From Chamaelirium japonicum (lineage: Eukaryota > Streptophyta > Magnoliopsida > Liliales > Melanthiaceae): a DNA stretch of 64,000 nucleotides. A model generated the notes under the pieces. The model was given only the letters and a program-made list of their open reading frames with translations, did no database searches and had not been told where the DNA came from. The DNA lies in contig OX393551.1 of the NCBI GenBank assembly GCA_947650365.1, positions 61,187,173-61,251,172 on the forward strand. Reading direction: 5' to 3'. Every line of letters begins with the position of its first letter. Position 1 is the stretch's first letter. Position numbers and translations under genes: made by a program. This document shows, piece after piece, positions 46,545-62,238 of the stretch.

Positions 46545-47745
46545 GAGTAAGAATCGATCGTACGAATGAAATAGAATTGATCGTACGAATGAATTAGAAT
46601 GGATCGTGCTAATGAATTAGAATGGATCGTACGAATGAAGTAGAATTAGAATGGATCGTACGAATAAGTAAGAATGGATCGTACGAATGAAATAGAATGG
46701 ATCGTACGAATGAATTAGAATGGATCATGCTAATGAATTAGAATGGATCGTACGAATGAATTAGAATAGATTATGCGAATGAATAAGAATGGATCATACA
46801 AATGAATTAGAATGATCGTTTGAATGAATTAGAATGGATCGTGCGAATGAATTAGAATGGATCGTACGAATGAATTAGAATGGATCATACGAAGGAATTA
46901 GGGTGCATCGTACGAATGAATTAGAATGGATACATTCATGCGAAAGAATTAGAATGGATTGTATGAATGAATTAGAATGGATCGTATGAATGAATTAAAA
47001 TGGATCGTGCGAATGAATTAGAATGGAACGTACGAATGAATTAGAATGGATCGTATGAATGAATTAGAATGGATCGTGCGAATGAATTAGAATGGATCGT
47101 GCGAATGAATTAGAATGGATACATTCGTGCGAATGAATTAGAATGGATCGCACGAATGAGTAAGAATGGATCGTACGAATGAAATAGAATGGATCGTATG
47201 AAAGAATTAGAATGGATCGTGCTAATGAATTAGATTGGATTATACTAATGAATTAGAATAGATTGTGCGAATGAATTAGAATGGATCGTGCGAATGAAAT
47301 AGAATGGATCGTACGAATGAATTAGAATAGATCGTGCTAATGAATTCGATTGGATCGTACGAATGAATTAGAATAGATCGTACGAATGAATGGATCGTAC
47401 GAAAGAATTAGAATGGATCGTATGAATAAATTAGAATGGATCATGCGAATGAATTAGAATGGATCGTATGAATGAATTAGAATTGATCGTGGGAATGAAT
47501 TAGATTGGATCGTGCGAATGAATTAGAATGGATCTTACAAATGAATTAGAATAGATACATTCGTGCGAATGAATTAGAATAGATCGTATGAATGAATTAG
47601 AATAGATCGTATGAATGAATTTGAATGGATCGTACGTATGAATTAGAATGGATCGTACGAATAAATTGGAATGGATCATATGAATGAATTAGAATGGATC
47701 GTGCGAATGAATTAGAATAGATCATGCGAATGAATTAGAATGAAT
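46545..47745 (-). repeat. Satellite, minus stretch
   Basis: Minus-strand units rich in block A markers and partial blocks, with a fused unit at GAAGTAGAATTAGAATGG near 46637. It ends GAATTCGTACGTACGATCC. Confidence 0.92.
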
Positions 47746-50234: not shown

Positions 50235-50503
50235 ATCGTGCGAATGAATTAGAATGGATCGTATGAATGAATTAGAATGGATCGTACGAATGAATTAGAA
50301 TGGATATATTCGTGTGAATGAATTAGAATGGATCGTATGAATGAATTAGAATGGATCGTATGAATGAATTATAATGGATCATGCGAATGAATTAGAATGG
50401 ATCGTACGAATGAATTAGAATGGATACATTCGTGCGAATGAATTAGAATGGATCGTACGAATGAGTAAGAATGGATCGTACGAATAAAATAGAATGGATA
50501 CAT
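50225..50503 (-). repeat. Satellite, short minus stretch
   Basis: About 280 bp of minus-strand units ending GGATACATTCGTATGATCC. Confidence 0.92.
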
Positions 50504-53500
50504 TCGTATGATCCATTCTATTTCATTCGTACGATCCATTCTTACTCATTCGTACGATCCATTCTAATTCATTCGCACGAATGTATCCGTTCTAATTCAT
50601 TCGTACGATCCATTCTAATTCATTCGCACGATCCATTCTAATTTATTCATACGATCCATTATAATTCATTCGTACGATCCATTCTAATTCATTGGCATGA
50701 TCCATTCTAATTCAGTCGTACGATCCATTCGAATTCATTCATACGATCCATTCTAATTCGTTCATACGATGCATTCTAATTAATTCGCACGAATGTATCC
50801 ATTCTAATTCTTTCGTACGATCCATTGTAATTCATTCGCACGATCCAATCTAATTCATTCACACGATCCATTCTAATTCATTCGTACGATCCATTCTATT
50901 TCATTCATACGATCCATTCTTACTCATTCGTACGATCCATTCTAATTTATTCGCATGAATGTATCCAATGTAATTCATTCGTACGATCCATTCTAATACA
51001 TTCGTACGATCGATTCTAATTCCTTCGTACGATCGATTCTAATTCCTTCGTACGATCCATTCTATAAATGAATTAGAATTAGAATGGATACATTCTATTT
51101 TATTCGTACGATCCATTCTAATTTATTCGCACGAATGTATCCATTTTAATACATTCGTACGATCCATTCGAATTCATTCATATGATCCATTCTAATTCAC
51201 TCATACGATTCATTCTAATTCATTCATACTATCCATTCTAATTCATCCGCATGAATGTATTCATTCGCACAATCAATTCTAATTCATTCGTACGATCCAT
51301 TCTATTTCATTCATACGATCTATTCTTACTTATTCGTACAATCCATTCTAATTCATTCGCACGAAGGTATCCATTCTAATTCATTCATACGATCCATTCT
51401 AATTCATTCACATGATCCATTCTAATTCATTCATACGATCCATTCTAATTCATTTGTACGATCCATTCTAATTCATTCGCATAATCTATTCTAATTCATT
51501 CGTACGATCAATTCTAATTAATTAGCACGATCTATTCTAATTTATTCGTACGATCCATTGTTACTCATTCATACGATCCATTCTAATTCATTCGCATGAA
51601 TGTATCCATTCTAATTCATTCATACGATCCATTCTAATTCATTCGCAAGATCCATTCTAATTCATTCATACGATCCATTCTAATTCATTCGTACGATCCA
51701 TTCTAATTCATTCGCATGATCTATTCTAATTCATTCATACGATCCATTCTAATTCATTCATACAATCCATTCTTATTCTTTCGCACGAATGTATCCATTC
51801 TAATTCATTCGTACGATCCACCCTAATTCCTTCGTATGATCCATTCTGATTCATTCGGACGAATGTATCTATTCTAATTCATTCGTATGATCCATTCGAA
51901 TTCATTCATACGATCCATTCTAATTCATTTATACGATCCATTCTAATTCATTCGCACGAATGTATCCATTCTAGTTCATTCGTACGATCCATTCTAATTC
52001 ATTTGCTAAATCTATTCTAATTCATTCGTACGATCCATTCTAATTCATTTATACGATCCATTCTATTTCCTTCGTACGATCCATTCTATTTCATTCGTAT
52101 AATCCATTCTAATTCCTTCGTACGATCCATTCTAATTCATTCCCATGAATGTATCCATTCTAATTCATACGAACGATCCATTATAATTCATTCATATGAT
52201 GCAATCTAATTCATTCATACGATCCATTCTAATTCATTCGCACGAATGTATCCATTCTAATTCATTCGCATGATCCATTCTAATTCATTCGTACGATACA
52301 TTCTAATTCATTAGCACGATCCATTCTAATTCATTCATACGATCCATTCTAATTCATTTGTACGATCCATTCTAATTCATTCGCACAATCTTTTCTAATT
52401 CATTCGTACTATCCATTCTAATTCATTAGCACGATCCATTTTAACTCTTTCGTACGATCCATTCTATATCATTCGTACGATCCATTCTTACTCATTCGTA
52501 CGATCCATTCTAATTCATTCGCATGAATGTATCCATTCTAATCCATTCGTACGATCCATTCTAATTCATTCATACGATCCATTCTAATTCATTCGCACGA
52601 ATGTATCCATTCTAATTCATTCGCACGATCCATTCTAATTCATTCGTACGATCCATTCTAATTCATTTGCTTCTAATTCATTCATACGATCCATTCTAAT
52701 TCATTCGTACGATCCATTCTAATTCATTCGTATAATCTATTCTAATTAATTCGTACTATCCATTCTAATTCATTAGCACGATCCATTCTAATTCATTTGT
52801 ACGATCCATTCTATTTCATTTATACGATCCATTCTTACTCATTCGTACGATCCATTCTAATTCATTCGCACGTATGTATCCATTCTAATTCATTCGTACG
52901 TTCCATTCTAATTCATTCGCACGATCCATTCTAATTCATTCATACGATCCATTCTAATTCATTCGTACGATCCATTCTAATTCATTCGCACGATCCATTT
53001 TAATTCATTCATACGATCCATTCTAATTCATTTATTCAATCCATTCTAATTCATTCGTACGATCCACCCTAATTCCTTCGTATGATCCATTCTAATTCAT
53101 TCGCACGAATGTATCCATTCTAATTCATTCGCACGAATGTATCCATTCTAATTCATTCGTACGATCCATTCGAATTAATTCATACAATCCAATCTAATTC
53201 ATTCGGACGATCCATTCTTATTCATTTATACGATCCATTCTAAATCATTCGTACGATCCATTCTAATTCATTCGCACGATCCATTCTAATTCATTCATAC
53301 GATCCATTCTAATTCATTCATACAATCCATTCTAATTCTTTCGTACGGATGTATCCATTCTAATTCATTTGTACGATCCACCCTAATTCCTTTGTATGAT
53401 CCATTCTAATTCATTCGCACGAATGTATCCATTCTGATTCATTCGTACGATCCATTCGAATTCATTCATACGATCCATTCTAATTCATTTGCATGATCCA

Positions 53501-54775
53501 TTCTAATTCATTCAAACAATCCATTCTAATTCTTTTGCACGAATGTATCCATTCTAATTCATTCGTACGATCCATTCTTACTCATTCGTACGATCCATTC
53601 TATTTCATTCGTACGATCCATTATAATTCATTAGCACGATCCATTCTAATTAATTCGTACGATCCATTCTATTTCATTCGTACAATCCATTCTAATTCAT
53701 TCGCACGAATGTATCCATTCTAATTCATTCGTACGATCCATTCTAATTCATTCGCATGATCCATTCTAATTTATTCATACGATCCATTCTAATTCATTCG
53801 TACGATCATTCTAATTCATTCGCACAGTCTATTCTAATTTATTCATACGATCCATTCTAATTCATTAGCACGATCCATTCTAATTCATTCGTACGATCCA
53901 TTCTATTTCATTTGTACGATCCATTCTTACTCATTCGTACGATCCATTCTAATTCATTCGCACGAATGTATCCATTCTAATTCATTCATACGAGCTATTC
54001 TAATTCATTCGCACGATCCATTCTAATTCATTCATACATTCATTCTAATTCATTTATACGATCCATTATATTTCATTCGCACGATCCATTCTAATTCATT
54101 CATACGATCCATTCTAATTCATTCATAAAATCCATTCTAATTCTTTTGCACGAATGTATCCATTCTAACTCATTCGTACGATCCACCCTAATTCCTTCGT
54201 TTGATCCATTCTAATTCATTCGCACGAATGTATCCATTCTAATTCATTCGTACGATCCATTCTAATTCATTCATACGATCCATTCTAATTAATTCGCACG
54301 AATGTATCCATTCTAATTCATTCGTACGATCTACCCAAATTCCTTCGTATGATCCATTCTAATTCATTCGCACGAATGTATCCATTCTAATTCATTCGTA
54401 TGATCCATTCGAATTCATTCATACGATCCATTCTAATTCATTCATACGATCCATTCTAATTCATTCGCATGAATGTATCCATTCTAATTCATTCATACGA
54501 TCCATTCTAATTCATTCGCACGATCCAATCTAATTCATTCGCACGATCCATTCTAATTCATTCGTACGATCCATTCTAATTCGTTCGCATGAATGTATCC
54601 ATTTTAATTCATTCGTACGATCCATTCTAATTCATTCGCACGATCCATTCTAATTCATTCGTACGATCCATTCTAATTCATTCGTACGATCCATTCTAAT
54701 TCATTCACACGATCCATTCTAATTCATTCGCACAATCTATTCTATGTCATTTGTAATTCATTCCCACGATCATTC
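50504..54775 (+). repeat. Satellite, plus-orientation stretch 17
   Basis: About 4.3 kb of plus-strand units with a small minus patch at 51065-51090. Standard A to G blocks recur (C markers near 51820, 53065, 53380 and 54180). It ends with two irregular units before the first unknown island. Confidence 0.93.
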
Positions 54776-54845
54776 AGGTGTTTAGGTTGCGGCCTCTGAC
54801 TTTGTATTTGGTTGAATACAAAGGTGCACCTTTGAACGTTAGTTG
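54776..54845. other. Non-satellite island, copy 1 (about 70 bp)
   Basis: A 70-bp stretch unlike any satellite unit. It starts AGGTGTTTAGGTTGCGGCC and ends GAACGTTAGTTG, with much more G than the surroundings. It holds a 16-bp palindrome CAAAGGTGCACCTTTG at 54819-54834. It sits exactly where plus-strand satellite changes to minus-strand satellite. Compared with copy 2 at 59503 it differs by 2 bases in 70 and lacks that copy's last 25 or so bases. I do not recognise it. It could be a remnant of unique or transposon DNA caught during the inversion. No tRNA promoter boxes or transposon ends are visible. Confidence 0.85.
54819..54834. repeat. Palindrome in island copy 1
   Basis: CAAAGGTGCACCTTTG is a perfect 16-bp inverted repeat. 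The 14-bp core is conserved in the second island. Confidence 0.9.
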
Positions 54846-57800
54846 AATTAGAATGAATTAGAATGGATCGTGCGAATGAATTAGAATGGATCGTACGAAT
54901 GAATTAGAATGGATTGGGCGAATGAATTAGAATGAATTAGAATGGATCGTGCGAATGACTTAGAATGGATCGTATGAATGAATTAGAATGGATACATTCG
55001 TGCAAATGAATTAAAATGGATCGTACGAATAAGTAAGAATGGATCGTACAAATGAAATTGAATGGATCGTATGAATGAATTAGAATGGATCATGCGAATG
55101 AATTACAATGGATCGTACGAATGAGTAAGAATGGATCGTACGAATGAAATAGAATGGATCGTATGAATGAATTAGAATGGATCGTGCTAATGAATTAGAA
55201 TGGATCGTACGAATGAATTAGAATAGATTGTGCGAATGAATTAGAATGGATCGTACGAATGAATTAGAATGGATATATTAATGGGAAAGAGTTAGAATGG
55301 ATCGTACGAAGGAATTAGAATGGATCGTACGAATGAATTAGAATGGATACATTCGTGCAAAAGAATTAGAATGGATTGTATGAATGAATTAGAATAGATC
55401 ATACAAATGAATTAGAATGGATCGTGCAAATGAATTAGAATGGATCGTGCGAATGAATTACGAATGAATTAGAATAGATTATGCGAATGAATTTGAATGG
55501 ATCGTGCGAATGAATTAGAATGGATCGTACGAATGAATTAGAATGGATCGTGCGAATGAATTAGAATGGATCGTGCGAATGAATTAGAATGGATCGTACG
55601 AATGAATCAGAATGGATATATTCGTGCGAATGAATTAGAATGGATCATACGAATGAGTAAGAATGGATCGTACGAATGAAATAGAATGGATCGTACGAAT
55701 AAATTAGAATGGATCGTGCTAATGAATTAGAATGGATCAAACGAATGAATTAGAATAGATTGTGCGTATGAATACATTCGTGCGAATGAATTAGAATGGA
55801 TCATATGAATGAATTAGAATGGATCGTATAAATGATTTAGAATGGATCGTATGAATGAATTCGAATGGATCGTACGAATGAATTAGAATGGATACATTAA
55901 TGGATCATACGAAGGAATTAGGGTGGATCATACGAATGAATTAGAATGGATATATTCGTGCGAAAGAATTAGAACGGATTGTATGAATGAATTAGAATGG
56001 ATCATATGAATGAATTAGAATGGATCGTGCGAATGAATTAGAATGGATCGTACGAATGAATTAGAATGGATACATTCGTTCGAAAGAATTAGAATGGATT
56101 GTATGAATGAATTAGAATGGATCATACGAATGAATTAGAATGGATCGTACGAATGAATTAGAATGGATCGTGCGAATGAATTAGATTGGATCGTGCGAAT
56201 GAATTAGAATGGATCGTACGAATGAGTAAGAATGGATCGTATGAATGAAATAGAATGGTTCATATGAATCAATTAGAATGGATCGTGTGAATGAATTAGA
56301 ATGGATCGTGCAAATGAATTAGAATGGATCGTGCGAATGAATTAGAATGGATCGTACGAATGAATTATAATAGATCGTATAAATGAATTAGAATGGATCG
56401 TACGAATGAATTAGAATGGATCGTATAAATAAATTCGAATGGATCGTACGAATGAATTAGAATGGATACATTCGTGCGAATGAATTAGAATGGATCATAA
56501 GAAGGAATTTGGGTCGATCGTATGAATGAATTAGAATGGATACATTCGTGCGAAATAATTAGAATGGATTGTATGAATGAATTAGGATGGATCGTATGAA
56601 TGAATTTGAATGGATCGTACGAATGAATTAGAATGGATCATACGAAGGAATTAGAATGGATATATTCGTGCGAAAGAATTAGAATGGATTGTATGAATGA
56701 ATTAGAATGGATCGTATGAATGAATTAGAATGGATCATGCGAATGAATCAGAATGGATCATACGAATGAATTAGAATGGATCGTACGAATGAATTAGAAT
56801 GGATCGTGCGAATGAATTAGAATGGATCGTACGAATGAATTAGAATGGATACATTCGAACGAATGAATTAGAATGGATCGTACAATGAATTAGAATGGAT
56901 ACATTCGTGCGAATGAATTAGAATGGATCGTACGAATGAGTAAGAATGGACCGTACAAATGAAATAGAATGGATCGTACGAATGAATTAGAATGGATCGT
57001 GCCAATGAATTAGAATGGATCGTACGAATGAATTAGAATGGATACATTCGTGCGAATGAATTAGAATGGATCGTTTGAATGAATTAGATTGGATCGTATG
57101 AATGAATTTGAATGGATCATACGTATGAATTAGAATGGATACATTCATGGAAATGAATTTGAATGAATCGTACGAAGGAATTAGAATGGATCATACGAAT
57201 GAAATAGAATGGATCATATGAAGGAATTAGAATGGATCGTATGAAGGAATTAGAATGGATCGTACGAAAGAATTAGAATGGATACATTCGTGCAAAAGAA
57301 TTAGAATGGATTGTATGAATGAATTAGAATGGATCGTGCAAATGAATTAGAATGGATCGTGCGAATGAATTAGAATGGATCGTATGAATGAATTAGAATA
57401 GATTGTGTGAATGAATTAGAATGGATCGTACGAATGAATTAGAATGGATACATTCGTGCAAATGAATTAGAATGGATCGTATGAATGAACTAGAATGGAT
57501 CGTATGAATGAATTAGAATGGATCGTGTGAATGAATTAGAATGGATCGTATGAGTGAATTAGAATGGATACATTCGTGCGAATGAATTAGAATGGATCGT
57601 ACGAATGAATTAGAATGGATCGTGCTAATGAATTAGAATGGATCGTACGAATGAATTAGAATAGATTGTGCGAATGAATTAGAATGGATCGTGCGAAGGA
57701 ATTAGAATGGATCATACGAATGGATCGTACGAAGGAATTAGAATGAATTAGAATGGATACATTCGTGCAAATGAATTAGAATGGATCGTATGAATGAATT

Positions 57801-59211
57801 AGATTGGATCGTATGAATGAATTAGAATGGAATGTACGTATGAATTAGAATGGATACATTCATGGGAATGAATTAGAATGGATCGTACGAAGGAATTAGA
57901 ATGGATTGTATGAAGGAATTAGAATGGATCGTACGAATGAATTAGAATGGATACATTCGTGCAAAAGAATTAGAATGTATTGTATGAATGAATTAGAATG
58001 GATCATACAAATAAATTAGAATGGATCGTGCGAATAAATTAGAATGGATCATACGAATGAATTAGAATAGATTGTGCGAATGAATTAGAATGGATCGTAC
58101 GAATGAATTAGAATGGATAAATTCGTGCGAATGAATTATAATGGATCGTATGAGTGAATTAGATTGGATCGTATGAATTAATTAGAATGGATCGTACGTA
58201 TGAAATAGAATGGATACATTCATGGGAAAGAATTAGAATGGATCATACGAAGGAATTCATACGAATGAAATAGAATGGATCGTACGAAGGAATTAGAATG
58301 GATCGTACGAAGGAATTAGGGTGGATCGTACGAATGAATTAGAATGGATACATTCGTGTGAAAGAATTAGAATGGATTGTATGAATAAATTAGAATGGAT
58401 CATATGAATGAATTAGAATGGATCTTGTGAATGAATTAGAATAGATCGTACGAATGAATTGGAATGGATCGTATGAATGAATTAGAATGGATCGTGCGAA
58501 TGAATTAGAATGGATCGTACGAATAAATTAGAATGGATATATTCGTGCGAATGAATTAGAATGGATCGTACGAATGAGTAAGAATGGATAGTACGAATGA
58601 AATAGATTGGATCGTATGAATGAATTAGAATGGATCGTGCTAATGAATTAGAATGGATCGTACGAATGAATTAGAATAGATTGTGCGAATGAATTAGAAT
58701 GGATCATAGATCGTACGAATGAATTAGAATGGATCGTACGTATGAATTAGAATGGATACATTAATGGGAATGAATAAGAATGGATTGTACGAAGGAATTA
58801 GAATGGATCATACGAATGAAATAGAATGGATCGTACGAAGGAATTAGAATGGATCGTACGAAGGAATTAGAATGGATACATTCGTGTAAAAGAATTAGAA
58901 TGGATTATATAAATGAATTAGAATGGATCGTGCAAATGAATTAGAATGGATCGTGCGAATGAATGAGAATGGATCGTACGAATGAATTAGAATAGATTGT
59001 GCGAATGAATTAGAATGGATCGTACGAATGAATTAGAATGGATCATATGAATGAATTAGAATAGATTGTGCGAATGAATTAGAATGGATCGTACGAATGA
59101 ATTAGAATGGATCGATGAATGAATTAGAATGGATCATACGAATGAATTAGAATGGATCGTATGAATGAGTAAGAATGGATCATATGAATGAAATAAAATG
59201 GATCGTACATA
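54846..59211 (-). repeat. Satellite, minus-orientation stretch 17
   Basis: About 4.4 kb of minus-strand units. Reversed F/G boundaries near 57146, 57861, 58221 and 58763 are closer together than in 30-40 kb, so cycles here have lost blocks. It ends GATCGTAC-ATACGATAC-GTACGATCC, an inverted repeat of 8 bp around a short spacer. Confidence 0.93.
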
Positions 59212-59502
59212 CGATACGTACGATCCATTCTAATTAATTCATACGATCATTCTAATTCATTCGTACGATCCATTCTAATTCATTCATACGATCCATTCTA
59301 ATTCATTCGTACGATCCATTCTAATTCATTCACACGAATGTATCTACTCTAATTCATTCGTACGATCCATTCTAATTCATTCGGACGAATGTATCCATTC
59401 TAATTCATTTGTACGATCAATTCTAATTCATTCGCACGTTCCATTCTAATTCATTCGCAGAATCTATTCTAGTTCATTCGTAATTCATTCGCACGATCAT
59501 TC
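59212..59502 (+). repeat. Satellite, short plus stretch before island 2
   Basis: About 290 bp of plus-strand units. The last irregular units (a unit starting AATCTATTCTAG, then TAATTCATTC without a joint) match those just before island copy 1. Confidence 0.92.
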
Positions 59503-59597
59503 AGGTGTTTAGGTTGCGGCCTCAGACTTTGTATTTGGTTGAATAGAAAGGTGCACCTTTGAACGTTAGTTGATCGTGGGGAGACCCTGTGTGATTT
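59503..59597. other. Non-satellite island, copy 2 (about 95 bp)
   Basis: The first 70 bp match island copy 1 with two differences. A further 25 or so bases, from ATCGTGGGGAGACCC to GTGATTTT, are found only here. It again lies at a plus-to-minus switch. The palindrome core AAAGGTGCACCTTT is at 59547-59560. A minus-strand frame stays open through it (59469-59690), but half of that frame is satellite translation and I see no protein family in the rest, so no gene is called. Confidence 0.87.
59547..59560. repeat. Palindrome in island copy 2
   Basis: AAAGGTGCACCTTT, a perfect 14-bp inverted repeat. The outer C/G pair seen in copy 1 is broken here by a C-to-G change. Confidence 0.9.
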
Positions 59598-62238
59598 TAC
59601 GAATGAATTAGAATGGATCGTACGAATGAGTAAGAATGGATCATACGAATGAAATATAATGGATCGTATGAATGAATTAGAATGGATCATATGAATGAAT
59701 TCGAATGGATCGTACGAATGAATTAGAATGGATACATTCGTGTGAATGAATTAGAATGGATCATAAGAAGGAATTAGGGTGGATCATACGAATGAATTAG
59801 AATGGATACATTCGTGTGAAAGAATTAGAATGGATTTTATGAATGAATTAGAATCGATCGTGGATTGTACGTATGAATTAGAATAGATACATTCATGGGA
59901 ATGAATTAGAATGGATCGTACGAAGGAATTAGAATGGATTGTACGAAGGAATTAGAATGGATCGTACGAATGAATTAGAATGGATACATTCGTGCAAAAG
60001 AATTAGAATGGATTGTATGAATGAATTAGAATGGATCGTACAAATGAATTAGAATGGATCGTGCGAGTGAATTAGAATGGATCGTACTAATAAATTAGAA
60101 TAGATTGTGCGAATGAATTAAAATGGATCGTACGAATGAATTAGAATGGATACATTCGTGCGAATGAATTAGAATGGATCGTATGAATGAAATAGAATGG
60201 ATCGTATGAATGAATTCGAATGGATCGTACGAATAAATTAGAATGGATACATTCGTGCGAATGGATTAGAATGGATCATACCAAGAAATTAGGGTGGATC
60301 GTACGAATGAATTAGAATAGATACATTCATGTGAAAGAATTAGAATGGATCGTATGAATGAGTAAGAATGGATCGTACGTATGAATTAGAATTGATACAT
60401 TCATGTGAATGAATTAGAATCTATCGTACGAAGGAATTAGAATGGATCATGCAAATAAAATAGAATGGATCGTACGAATGAATTAGAATGGATCGTGTGA
60501 ATGAATTAGAATGGATGGTACGAATGAATTAGAATGGATCGTATGAATGAATTAGAATGAACTAGAATGGATCATACGAATGAAATGAATTAGAATGGAA
60601 CGTGCTAATGAATTAGAATGGATACATTCGTGCAAAAGAATTAGAATGGATTGTATGAAAGAATTAGAATGGATCGTGCAAATGAATTAGAATGGATCGT
60701 ATGAATTAGAATGGATCGTATGAATGAAATAGAATGGATCGTACGAATGATTTAGAATGGATCGTGCTAATGAATTAGAATGGATTGTACAAATGAATTA
60801 GAATTAGAATGGATCGTACGAATGAGTAAGAATGGATCGTACGAATGATATAGAATGGATCGTACGAATGAATTAGAATGGATCATGCTAATGAATTAGA
60901 ATGGATCGTACGAATGAATTAGAATAGATTGTGTGAATGAATTAGAATGGATCGTATGAATGAATTAGAATGGATCGTATGAATGAATTAGAATGGATCG
61001 TGCGAATGAATTAGAATGGATCGTATGACTGAATTAGAATGGATCATACGAAGGAATTAGGGTGGATCGTACGAATGAATTAGAATGGATACATTCGTGC
61101 GAAAGAATTAGAATGGATTGTATGAATGAATTAGAATGGATCATATGAATGAATTAGAGTGGATCGTGTGAATGAATTAGAATGGATCATACGAATGAAT
61201 TAGAATGGATCGTATGAATGAATTAGAATGGATCGTGTGAATGAATTAGAATTGATCATACGAATGAATTAGAATGGATACATTCGTCCGAATGAATTAG
61301 AATGGATCGTACGAATGAGTAAGAATGGATCGTATGAATGAAATAGAATGGGTCGTACGAATGAATTAGAATGGATCGTGCTAATGAATTAGATTGGATC
61401 GTACGATGAATGAATTAGAATGGATACATTCGTCCGAATGAATTAGAATGGATCGTATGAATGAATTAGAATGGATCGTATGAATGAATTCGAATGGATC
61501 GTACGAATGAATTAGAATGGATACATTCGTGCGAATGAATTAGAATGGATCATATGAAGGAATTAGGGTGGATAGTACGAATGAATTAGAATGGATATAT
61601 TCGTGTGAAAAAATTAGAATGGATTGTATGAATGAATTAGAATGGATCGTATGAATGAATTAGAATGGATCGTGCGAATGAATTAGAATGGATCGTATGA
61701 ATGAATTAGAATGGATCGTGTGAATGAATTAGAATAGATCGTATGAATTAGAATGGATTGTATGAATGAATTAGAATGGATCGTATGAATGAATTAGAAT
61801 GGATCGTGCGAATGAATTTGAATAGATTGTGCGAATGAGTTATAATGGATCGTGCGAATGAATTAGAATAGATCGTACGAATGAATAAGAATGGATCGTA
61901 TGAATGAATTAGAATGGATTGTGCTAATGAATTAGAATGGATCGTACGAATGAATTATAATAGATTGTGCGAATGAATTAGAATGGATCGTACGAATGAA
62001 TTAGAATGGATCGTACGAATGAATTAGAATGGATCGTACGAATGATTTAGAATCGATACATTCGTGCGAAAAAGTTAGAATGGATTGTATGAATGAATTA
62101 GAATGGATCGTGCGAATGAATTAGAATGGATCGTACGAATGAATTAGAATAGATTGTGCGAATGAATTAGAATGGATCGTACGAATGAATTAGAATGGAT
62201 CGTACGAATGAATTAGAATGGATCGTATGAATGAATTA
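59598..62238 (-). repeat. Satellite, minus-orientation stretch 18
   Basis: Minus-strand units with C markers (GAATTAGGGTGG) near 59775, 60290, 61060 and 61563. It ends GAATGAATTAGCACGATCC, where a minus-strand TTAG meets a plus-strand CATTAGCAC-type ending. Confidence 0.93.

Follow-up and report, generated by a model that had tools for sequence, protein, structure and literature searches.

Multiplied inversion joints marked by a non-satellite fragment in a 23-bp satellite of Chamaelirium japonicum

In Tribolium madens, oppositely oriented subarrays of the satellites TmSat1 and TmSat2 are joined at a few highly conserved and amplified inversion sites that are capable of forming hairpins, and these sites have been proposed to organise heterochromatin (PMC13081366). 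Fold-back inverted duplications carry a spacer together with 2-8 bp of inverted microhomology, and the spacers of the human cases span 766-70,466 bp (PMC3907307). Tat-lineage retrotransposons are described as carriers of tandem repeats of the kind reported below, and the repeats in the 3′ UTR of Ogre/Tat elements give rise to satellites (PMC7004042).

The joints reported here belong with the amplified inversion sites of the T. madens type, with the addition of a foreign fragment at the joint. Like the inversion sites of that species, they are amplified, conserved in sequence and capable of forming hairpins (PMC13081366). In T. madens the inversion sites are diverged subunits of the satellite itself, whereas here a non-satellite fragment occupies the joint. 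The setting differs as well, because the plant repeat is only 23 bp long, the array switches orientation many times, and most joints in the window are unmirrored.

The window, by which we mean the entire stretch of 64,000 nucleotides that was analysed (C3:61187173-61251172 of a 1.52-Gb assembly), consists of the 23-bp satellite nearly throughout. A few literature searches found no earlier description of this satellite. The window is divided into 47 orientation runs, some of them a single unit, and thus contains 46 switches. Short stretches of other DNA, which we call islands, are present at only two of these, and orientation switching therefore proceeds without need for an island. Two types of island-free joint recur in the window as near-identical junctions (Table 1), which indicates that the copying of joints is general here. 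Only one of 34 joints examined for mirror symmetry scores above all 500 controls, and fold-back as the origin of every window joint is rejected; a second joint, at 46545, has a p value of 0.048. As a separate observation on the assembly, COX1 matches with equal top score lie on 59 small contigs and rbcL gives 131 matches, a multiplicity that represents many unmerged organelle contigs or copies. Both genes are of plant type, the rbcL sequence is monocot-like, and its best match in the PDB is 1wdd, from rice.

An initial annotation had described the two islands as the sole non-satellite DNA in the window, and a scan of the whole window agrees. Specifically, 60-mers taken at steps of 20 were scored against the 23-bp consensus, with 300 shuffled 60-mers as the null (99th percentile 14, maximum 18; window median 47). 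Every piece that fails to exceed the shuffled maximum touches one of the two islands: the eight lowest scores, 6-18, fall between 54741 and 54860 or between 59481 and 59600, and the next lowest is 21. The same annotation was also right about the likeness of the islands. They differ at two of the 71 positions they have in common, the irregular satellite that precedes them shows four differences over 42 bp, both contain the palindrome AAAGGTGCACCTTT, and the orientation runs place both at a transition from plus satellite (left) to minus satellite (right). A 21-base island core matches the window twice at no more than three mismatches, as compared with 0 matches in 100 shuffles. A scan of positions 54000-60500 against Rfam returned 0 matches at the gathering score, ruling out a known RNA family at the islands.

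Table 1. Positions of the islands, their parts and related joints. Coordinates refer to the window unless a contig is named.
Feature	Position	Strand or direction	Remark
Irregular satellite units left of L island	54734..54775	+	common to island forms; 200-bp left flanks above null
Island, L form, 71 bp	54776..54846	+	plus-to-minus joint
Palindrome AAAGGTGCACCTTT in L island	54820..54833	.	
Minus satellite between L and S islands	54847..59200	-	part of amplified L-S unit
Minus-to-plus joint opening the short plus block that carries the S island	59200..59225	.	
Short plus satellite block left of S	59226..59502	+	ends in common irregular units 59461-59502
Island, S form, 93 bp	59503..59595	+	~59549-59595 matches 186-bp dispersed repeat unit
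Palindrome AAAGGTGCACCTTT in S island	59547..59560	.	
GATTTTA (GATTCTA in most S copies)	59593..59599	.	before minus array
Recurring island-free joint type, first	7294, 11191, 13245, 14676, 17704		near-identical junctions
Recurring island-free joint type, second	8041, 12071, 15552		near-identical junctions
Mirrored joint	50496-50513	minus-to-plus	score 387 versus a maximum of 379 in 500 controls; unique among 34 tested
D pair, 8531-bp spacing	C2:3390030 and 3398561 (L050)		
D pair, 8531-bp spacing	C4:91672319 and 91680850		

Copies of the islands occur throughout the genome. Among the best 40 of 1483 candidates scored with a 201-bp query spanning the first island, full-length copies show 96-97% identity, and the 21-base core with at most one mismatch occurs 430 times in the 1.52 Gb, as compared with 0 occurrences of a reversed control pattern. 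The satellite loci that we fetched, which are the best matches plus picked places rather than a random sample, hold 88 distinct islands on 15 contigs. Typing was possible for 82 of these (30 S, 10 L and 42 arms of 21 dyads), and the other six lie too close to the end of a locus. In one and the same orientation, all 82 typed islands are preceded by plus satellite and followed by minus satellite. At no more than three mismatches, the core is absent from all fetched non-satellite loci.

Three main forms are distinguished by their right joints, and each count given here is the number of matches to one pattern at no more than three mismatches. In the L form (83 genome matches), the palindrome is followed by GAACGTTAGTTGA and then by minus satellite. 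The S form (101 matches) continues through GATCGTGGGGAGACCCTGTGTGAT and GATTCTA or GATTTTA before minus satellite begins. The D form (174 matches) is a dyad in which a long island is followed by one plus-strand unit, GATCCATTCTAATTCATTC, and then by an inverted island that reads outward from its palindrome. The sequence of the inversion site is thus conserved over many joints. By comparison with D, the seven bases that close the S form are probably a remnant of plus-strand satellite. For an uninverted form, in which both neighbours of the island would be plus satellite, the one specific pattern used has 0 matches, again at no more than three mismatches. Separately, pairs of D lie exactly 8531 bp apart on two chromosome-scale contigs (Table 1), and this identical spacing suggests that a satellite block spread recently between the two.

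The initial annotation proposed a genome search for the origin of the islands, in which a single-copy donor would support capture and many dispersed copies a mobile element. By this test, part of the island belongs to a dispersed repeat family and was apparently captured once. Judged by sequence similarity, the right half of the island (~40-47 bp) is plainly related to a dispersed 186-bp tandem repeat. The 24-base end of the S form, GATCGTGGGGAGACCCTGTGTGAT, is matched exactly at four non-satellite places; at no more than three mismatches, this end alone has 216 matches, some outside satellite, and six that were fetched from C1, C4 and C5 are non-satellite. In the dispersed copies, the S end sits within the 186-bp tandem repeat, which has further tandem repeats of ~35-130 bp next to it, and the right part of the island aligns to two fetched loci at 94.9% identity over 39 bp (L044) and 89.4% over 47 bp (L046). 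With a composite query, the best 40 of 688 candidates scored yielded 262 matches, so the dispersed repeat is common. None of the matches listed is a dispersed copy that covers the entire island: away from the places already known to carry islands, they start at position 43 of the query or later, which excludes from that list a donor carrying the entire island. The left half has a weak likeness to stretches of GCCTCAGACTTTGTATT type in the neighbouring repeat (at best two edits in 21), and that repeat is its likely, if unproved, source.

The dispersed repeat is tandem-rich and apparently non-coding. On C4 its region occurs twice in direct orientation at a distance of 7.7 kb, with 81.6% identity over 4.4 kb. 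A search of six frames at E 0.01 found no retrotransposon domain in L052, L053, L088 and L089, which are four flanks at two places, and thus no sign there of the gag-pol domains of a Tat/Ogre-type LTR retrotransposon, although non-autonomous copies would escape such a search. Likewise, 10 open frames from dispersed-repeat loci contain no transposon domain at E 0.1. DUF3915 (Pfam) exceeds its cut-off once (28.1 versus 26.9) and was set aside since it falls on an (AG)n repeat of L088, and Atrophin-1, WD40, Uds1 and other Pfam matches near the dispersed repeat are below cut-off. As in the Ogre/Tat case, tandem repeats within dispersed repeats supply sequence to satellite DNA (PMC7004042). The present case is different in that only a fragment is captured, the 23-bp satellite is not shown to derive from the dispersed repeat, and no retrotransposon protein domain lies near the dispersed copies tested. 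A short array of the 23-bp repeat (5.7 copies) was also noticed at L052:757-891 (C4:18499759-18499893), within non-satellite DNA near the dispersed repeat, and could be a seed of the satellite or a stray.

Despite their different right joints, all forms have a common left boundary and start at the same base after ...CACGATCATTC. The satellite to the left of that boundary is related in register as well, as judged by alignment scores over 200 bp between forms. L scores 317 with the long and 304 with the short D islands (null 236 +/- 22), S scores 287 and 255 (null 210 +/- 20), and the long and short D islands score 297 with each other (null 231 +/- 28). This common boundary and in-register flank point to a single capture followed by amplification, and the island was apparently captured once and then multiplied with its neighbours. 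The initial annotation had instead spoken of an island captured twice. With 430 core copies, L joints on 30 contigs, S joints on 33, and one left boundary and flank, neither two independent captures nor a local event is supported. Its broader view, in which foreign DNA inside the satellite is tied to inversion joints and was later duplicated, is sound.

The amplified unit can be recognised directly. L and S travel as a fixed L-then-S unit of ~5 kb: with 100 of the 101 S places listed, an S copy follows on the same strand, 2.6-6.7 kb downstream (median 4971), in 66 of the 83 cases of L, S is upstream of L in 0 of 83, and S lies on the opposite strand once. The ~4.7-kb duplication that had been proposed for the window is thus too simple, given this recurring unit and the fact that L and S differ in their right joints and right flanks. 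Identity within forms (eight L and 30 S copies, all of them best island matches, so that island identity is inflated) is highest of all bins in the island, at 0.987 for L and 0.978 for S. It is 0.957-0.985 in satellite within 60 bp of the island and 0.907-0.955 in the outermost flank bins, and random array pairs give 0.880. Such a profile fits block amplification.

Right flanks give no support to S and L being plain D forms with a deleted arm. The S right flanks score at background against the D arms (422-445 versus 439), and those of three L copies are slightly above it (512-528 versus 459 +/- 49). By eye, rare forms at L068 and at L069-L071 do look like D minus one arm.

In the D form, the left arm and the satellite flank of that arm are mirrored on the right, which places the switch at the island. 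The arms are separated by a 45-nt spacer, and the turn carries a TTC/GAA inverted microhomology of 3 bp, which is weak evidence in a repetitive array. This combination fits the signature of a fold-back duplication, namely an inverted copy, a short spacer and short inverted microhomology at the turn (PMC3907307). In contrast to the human cases, the spacer of D is only 45 nt and the dyad lies inside satellite. The two island joints of the window are unmirrored over 250-bp flanks (p 0.098 for L and 0.762 for S), so fold-back is supported for D alone.

Mirror symmetry beyond the island was compared with 40 controls in 15 dyads at 200 and ~400 bp. Among these dyads, which are kin by descent and come from picked loci, nine of 15 score above every one of the 40 controls at 200 bp, whereas six do not; seven of 15 do so at ~400 bp (the length was 317 and 362 bp for two of them). 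At 800 bp one of five beats all controls, and at 1500 bp L048 is barely over them (1892 versus 1887) and L049 is not. As a single strand, D folds at -106.4 kcal/mol (z -23.9), with 86 pairs over 89 nt of arm and 59 of these pairs within the island; L reaches -69.3 kcal/mol (z -14.8) and S -46.2 kcal/mol (z -8.2).

The long inverted arms of D and their spacer, and the many occurrences of this form, resemble a foldback or MITE-like transposon with terminal inverted repeats (~200 bp in D) that inserted into the satellite, L and S being decayed copies. Such an element should lie at unrelated sites, between continuous flanks and with a target-site duplication, whereas the 82 typed islands of our non-random sample all lie between opposite satellite orientations, an arrangement that insertion does not explain. 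Moreover, flanks are common between copies, mirror symmetry extends past the arms into satellite in some dyads, and the core is confined to satellite among the loci fetched. We therefore regard a transposon as extremely improbable.

The fold of D also invites the idea that the hairpin centre is under selection, as part of a set of conserved inversion sites that organise heterochromatin, a role proposed for those of T. madens. The peak of identity within the island agrees with this idea, as does the recurrence of several island-free joints in the window. Against it, satellite within 60 bp is nearly as conserved, as block amplification alone would give, the compared loci were the best island matches, and the fold of S is far weaker than that of D. 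A maintained functional site thus seems very unlikely.

We favor a different and probable explanation, in which the capture of a fragment, a fold-back at D and the amplification of satellite blocks together account for the islands. First, a short fragment would have become linked, on one occasion, to plus-oriented 23-bp satellite. Breakage approximately one unit downstream of the island would then have permitted fold-back, in which the 3′ end CATTC anneals by TTC/GAA to the island, 45 nt upstream of it, and copies it back. The product would be D, whose right side mirrors both the left part of the island and the satellite that flanks it on the left. The other right joints (S, L and the rarer forms) may have arisen beside or inside the island by loss of an arm or by separate rearrangements. 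Finally, ordinary block amplification of the satellite would have raised the number of all forms, with L and S travelling together in a ~5-kb unit.

The order of the first two steps deserves comment, since the initial annotation suggested that the island may be filler made when the inversion formed. In this alternative, error-prone repair copied a piece of the dispersed repeat into a gap, and capture and inversion were one event that happened once. The position of all 82 typed copies at a joint, the derivation of the right half from a dispersed repeat, and the 0 matches to the uninverted pattern are all compatible with filler. However, plus satellite follows the island in D, and S retains a 7-bp remnant of it, which argues that the island is probably older than the inversion. 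Furthermore, several right joints with one left boundary require additional rearrangements in any case. We infer that the island more likely already belonged to a plus array when the inversion took place, despite the lack of matches to the uninverted pattern, and we consider filler unlikely.

A further possibility is that the captured fragment, with its perfect palindrome, served as a recurrent turning point, such that several independent joints (D, S, L and the rare forms) formed in or beside it. This is a rather doubtful reading. If true, the fragment would be an inversion-prone cassette that seeds orientation switches as satellite blocks amplify.

Under the preferred explanation of capture, fold-back and block amplification, the case is ordinary in kind and unusually well marked, an example of a turnaround in a satellite array and not a new element. 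Orientation switches in satellites are hard to trace because the same repeat lies on both sides. Here, the breakpoints are pinned down exactly by a foreign tag, so that the spacer and microhomology of one class of joint are visible at the level of single bases, and it lets the multiplication of these joints be followed across chromosomes.
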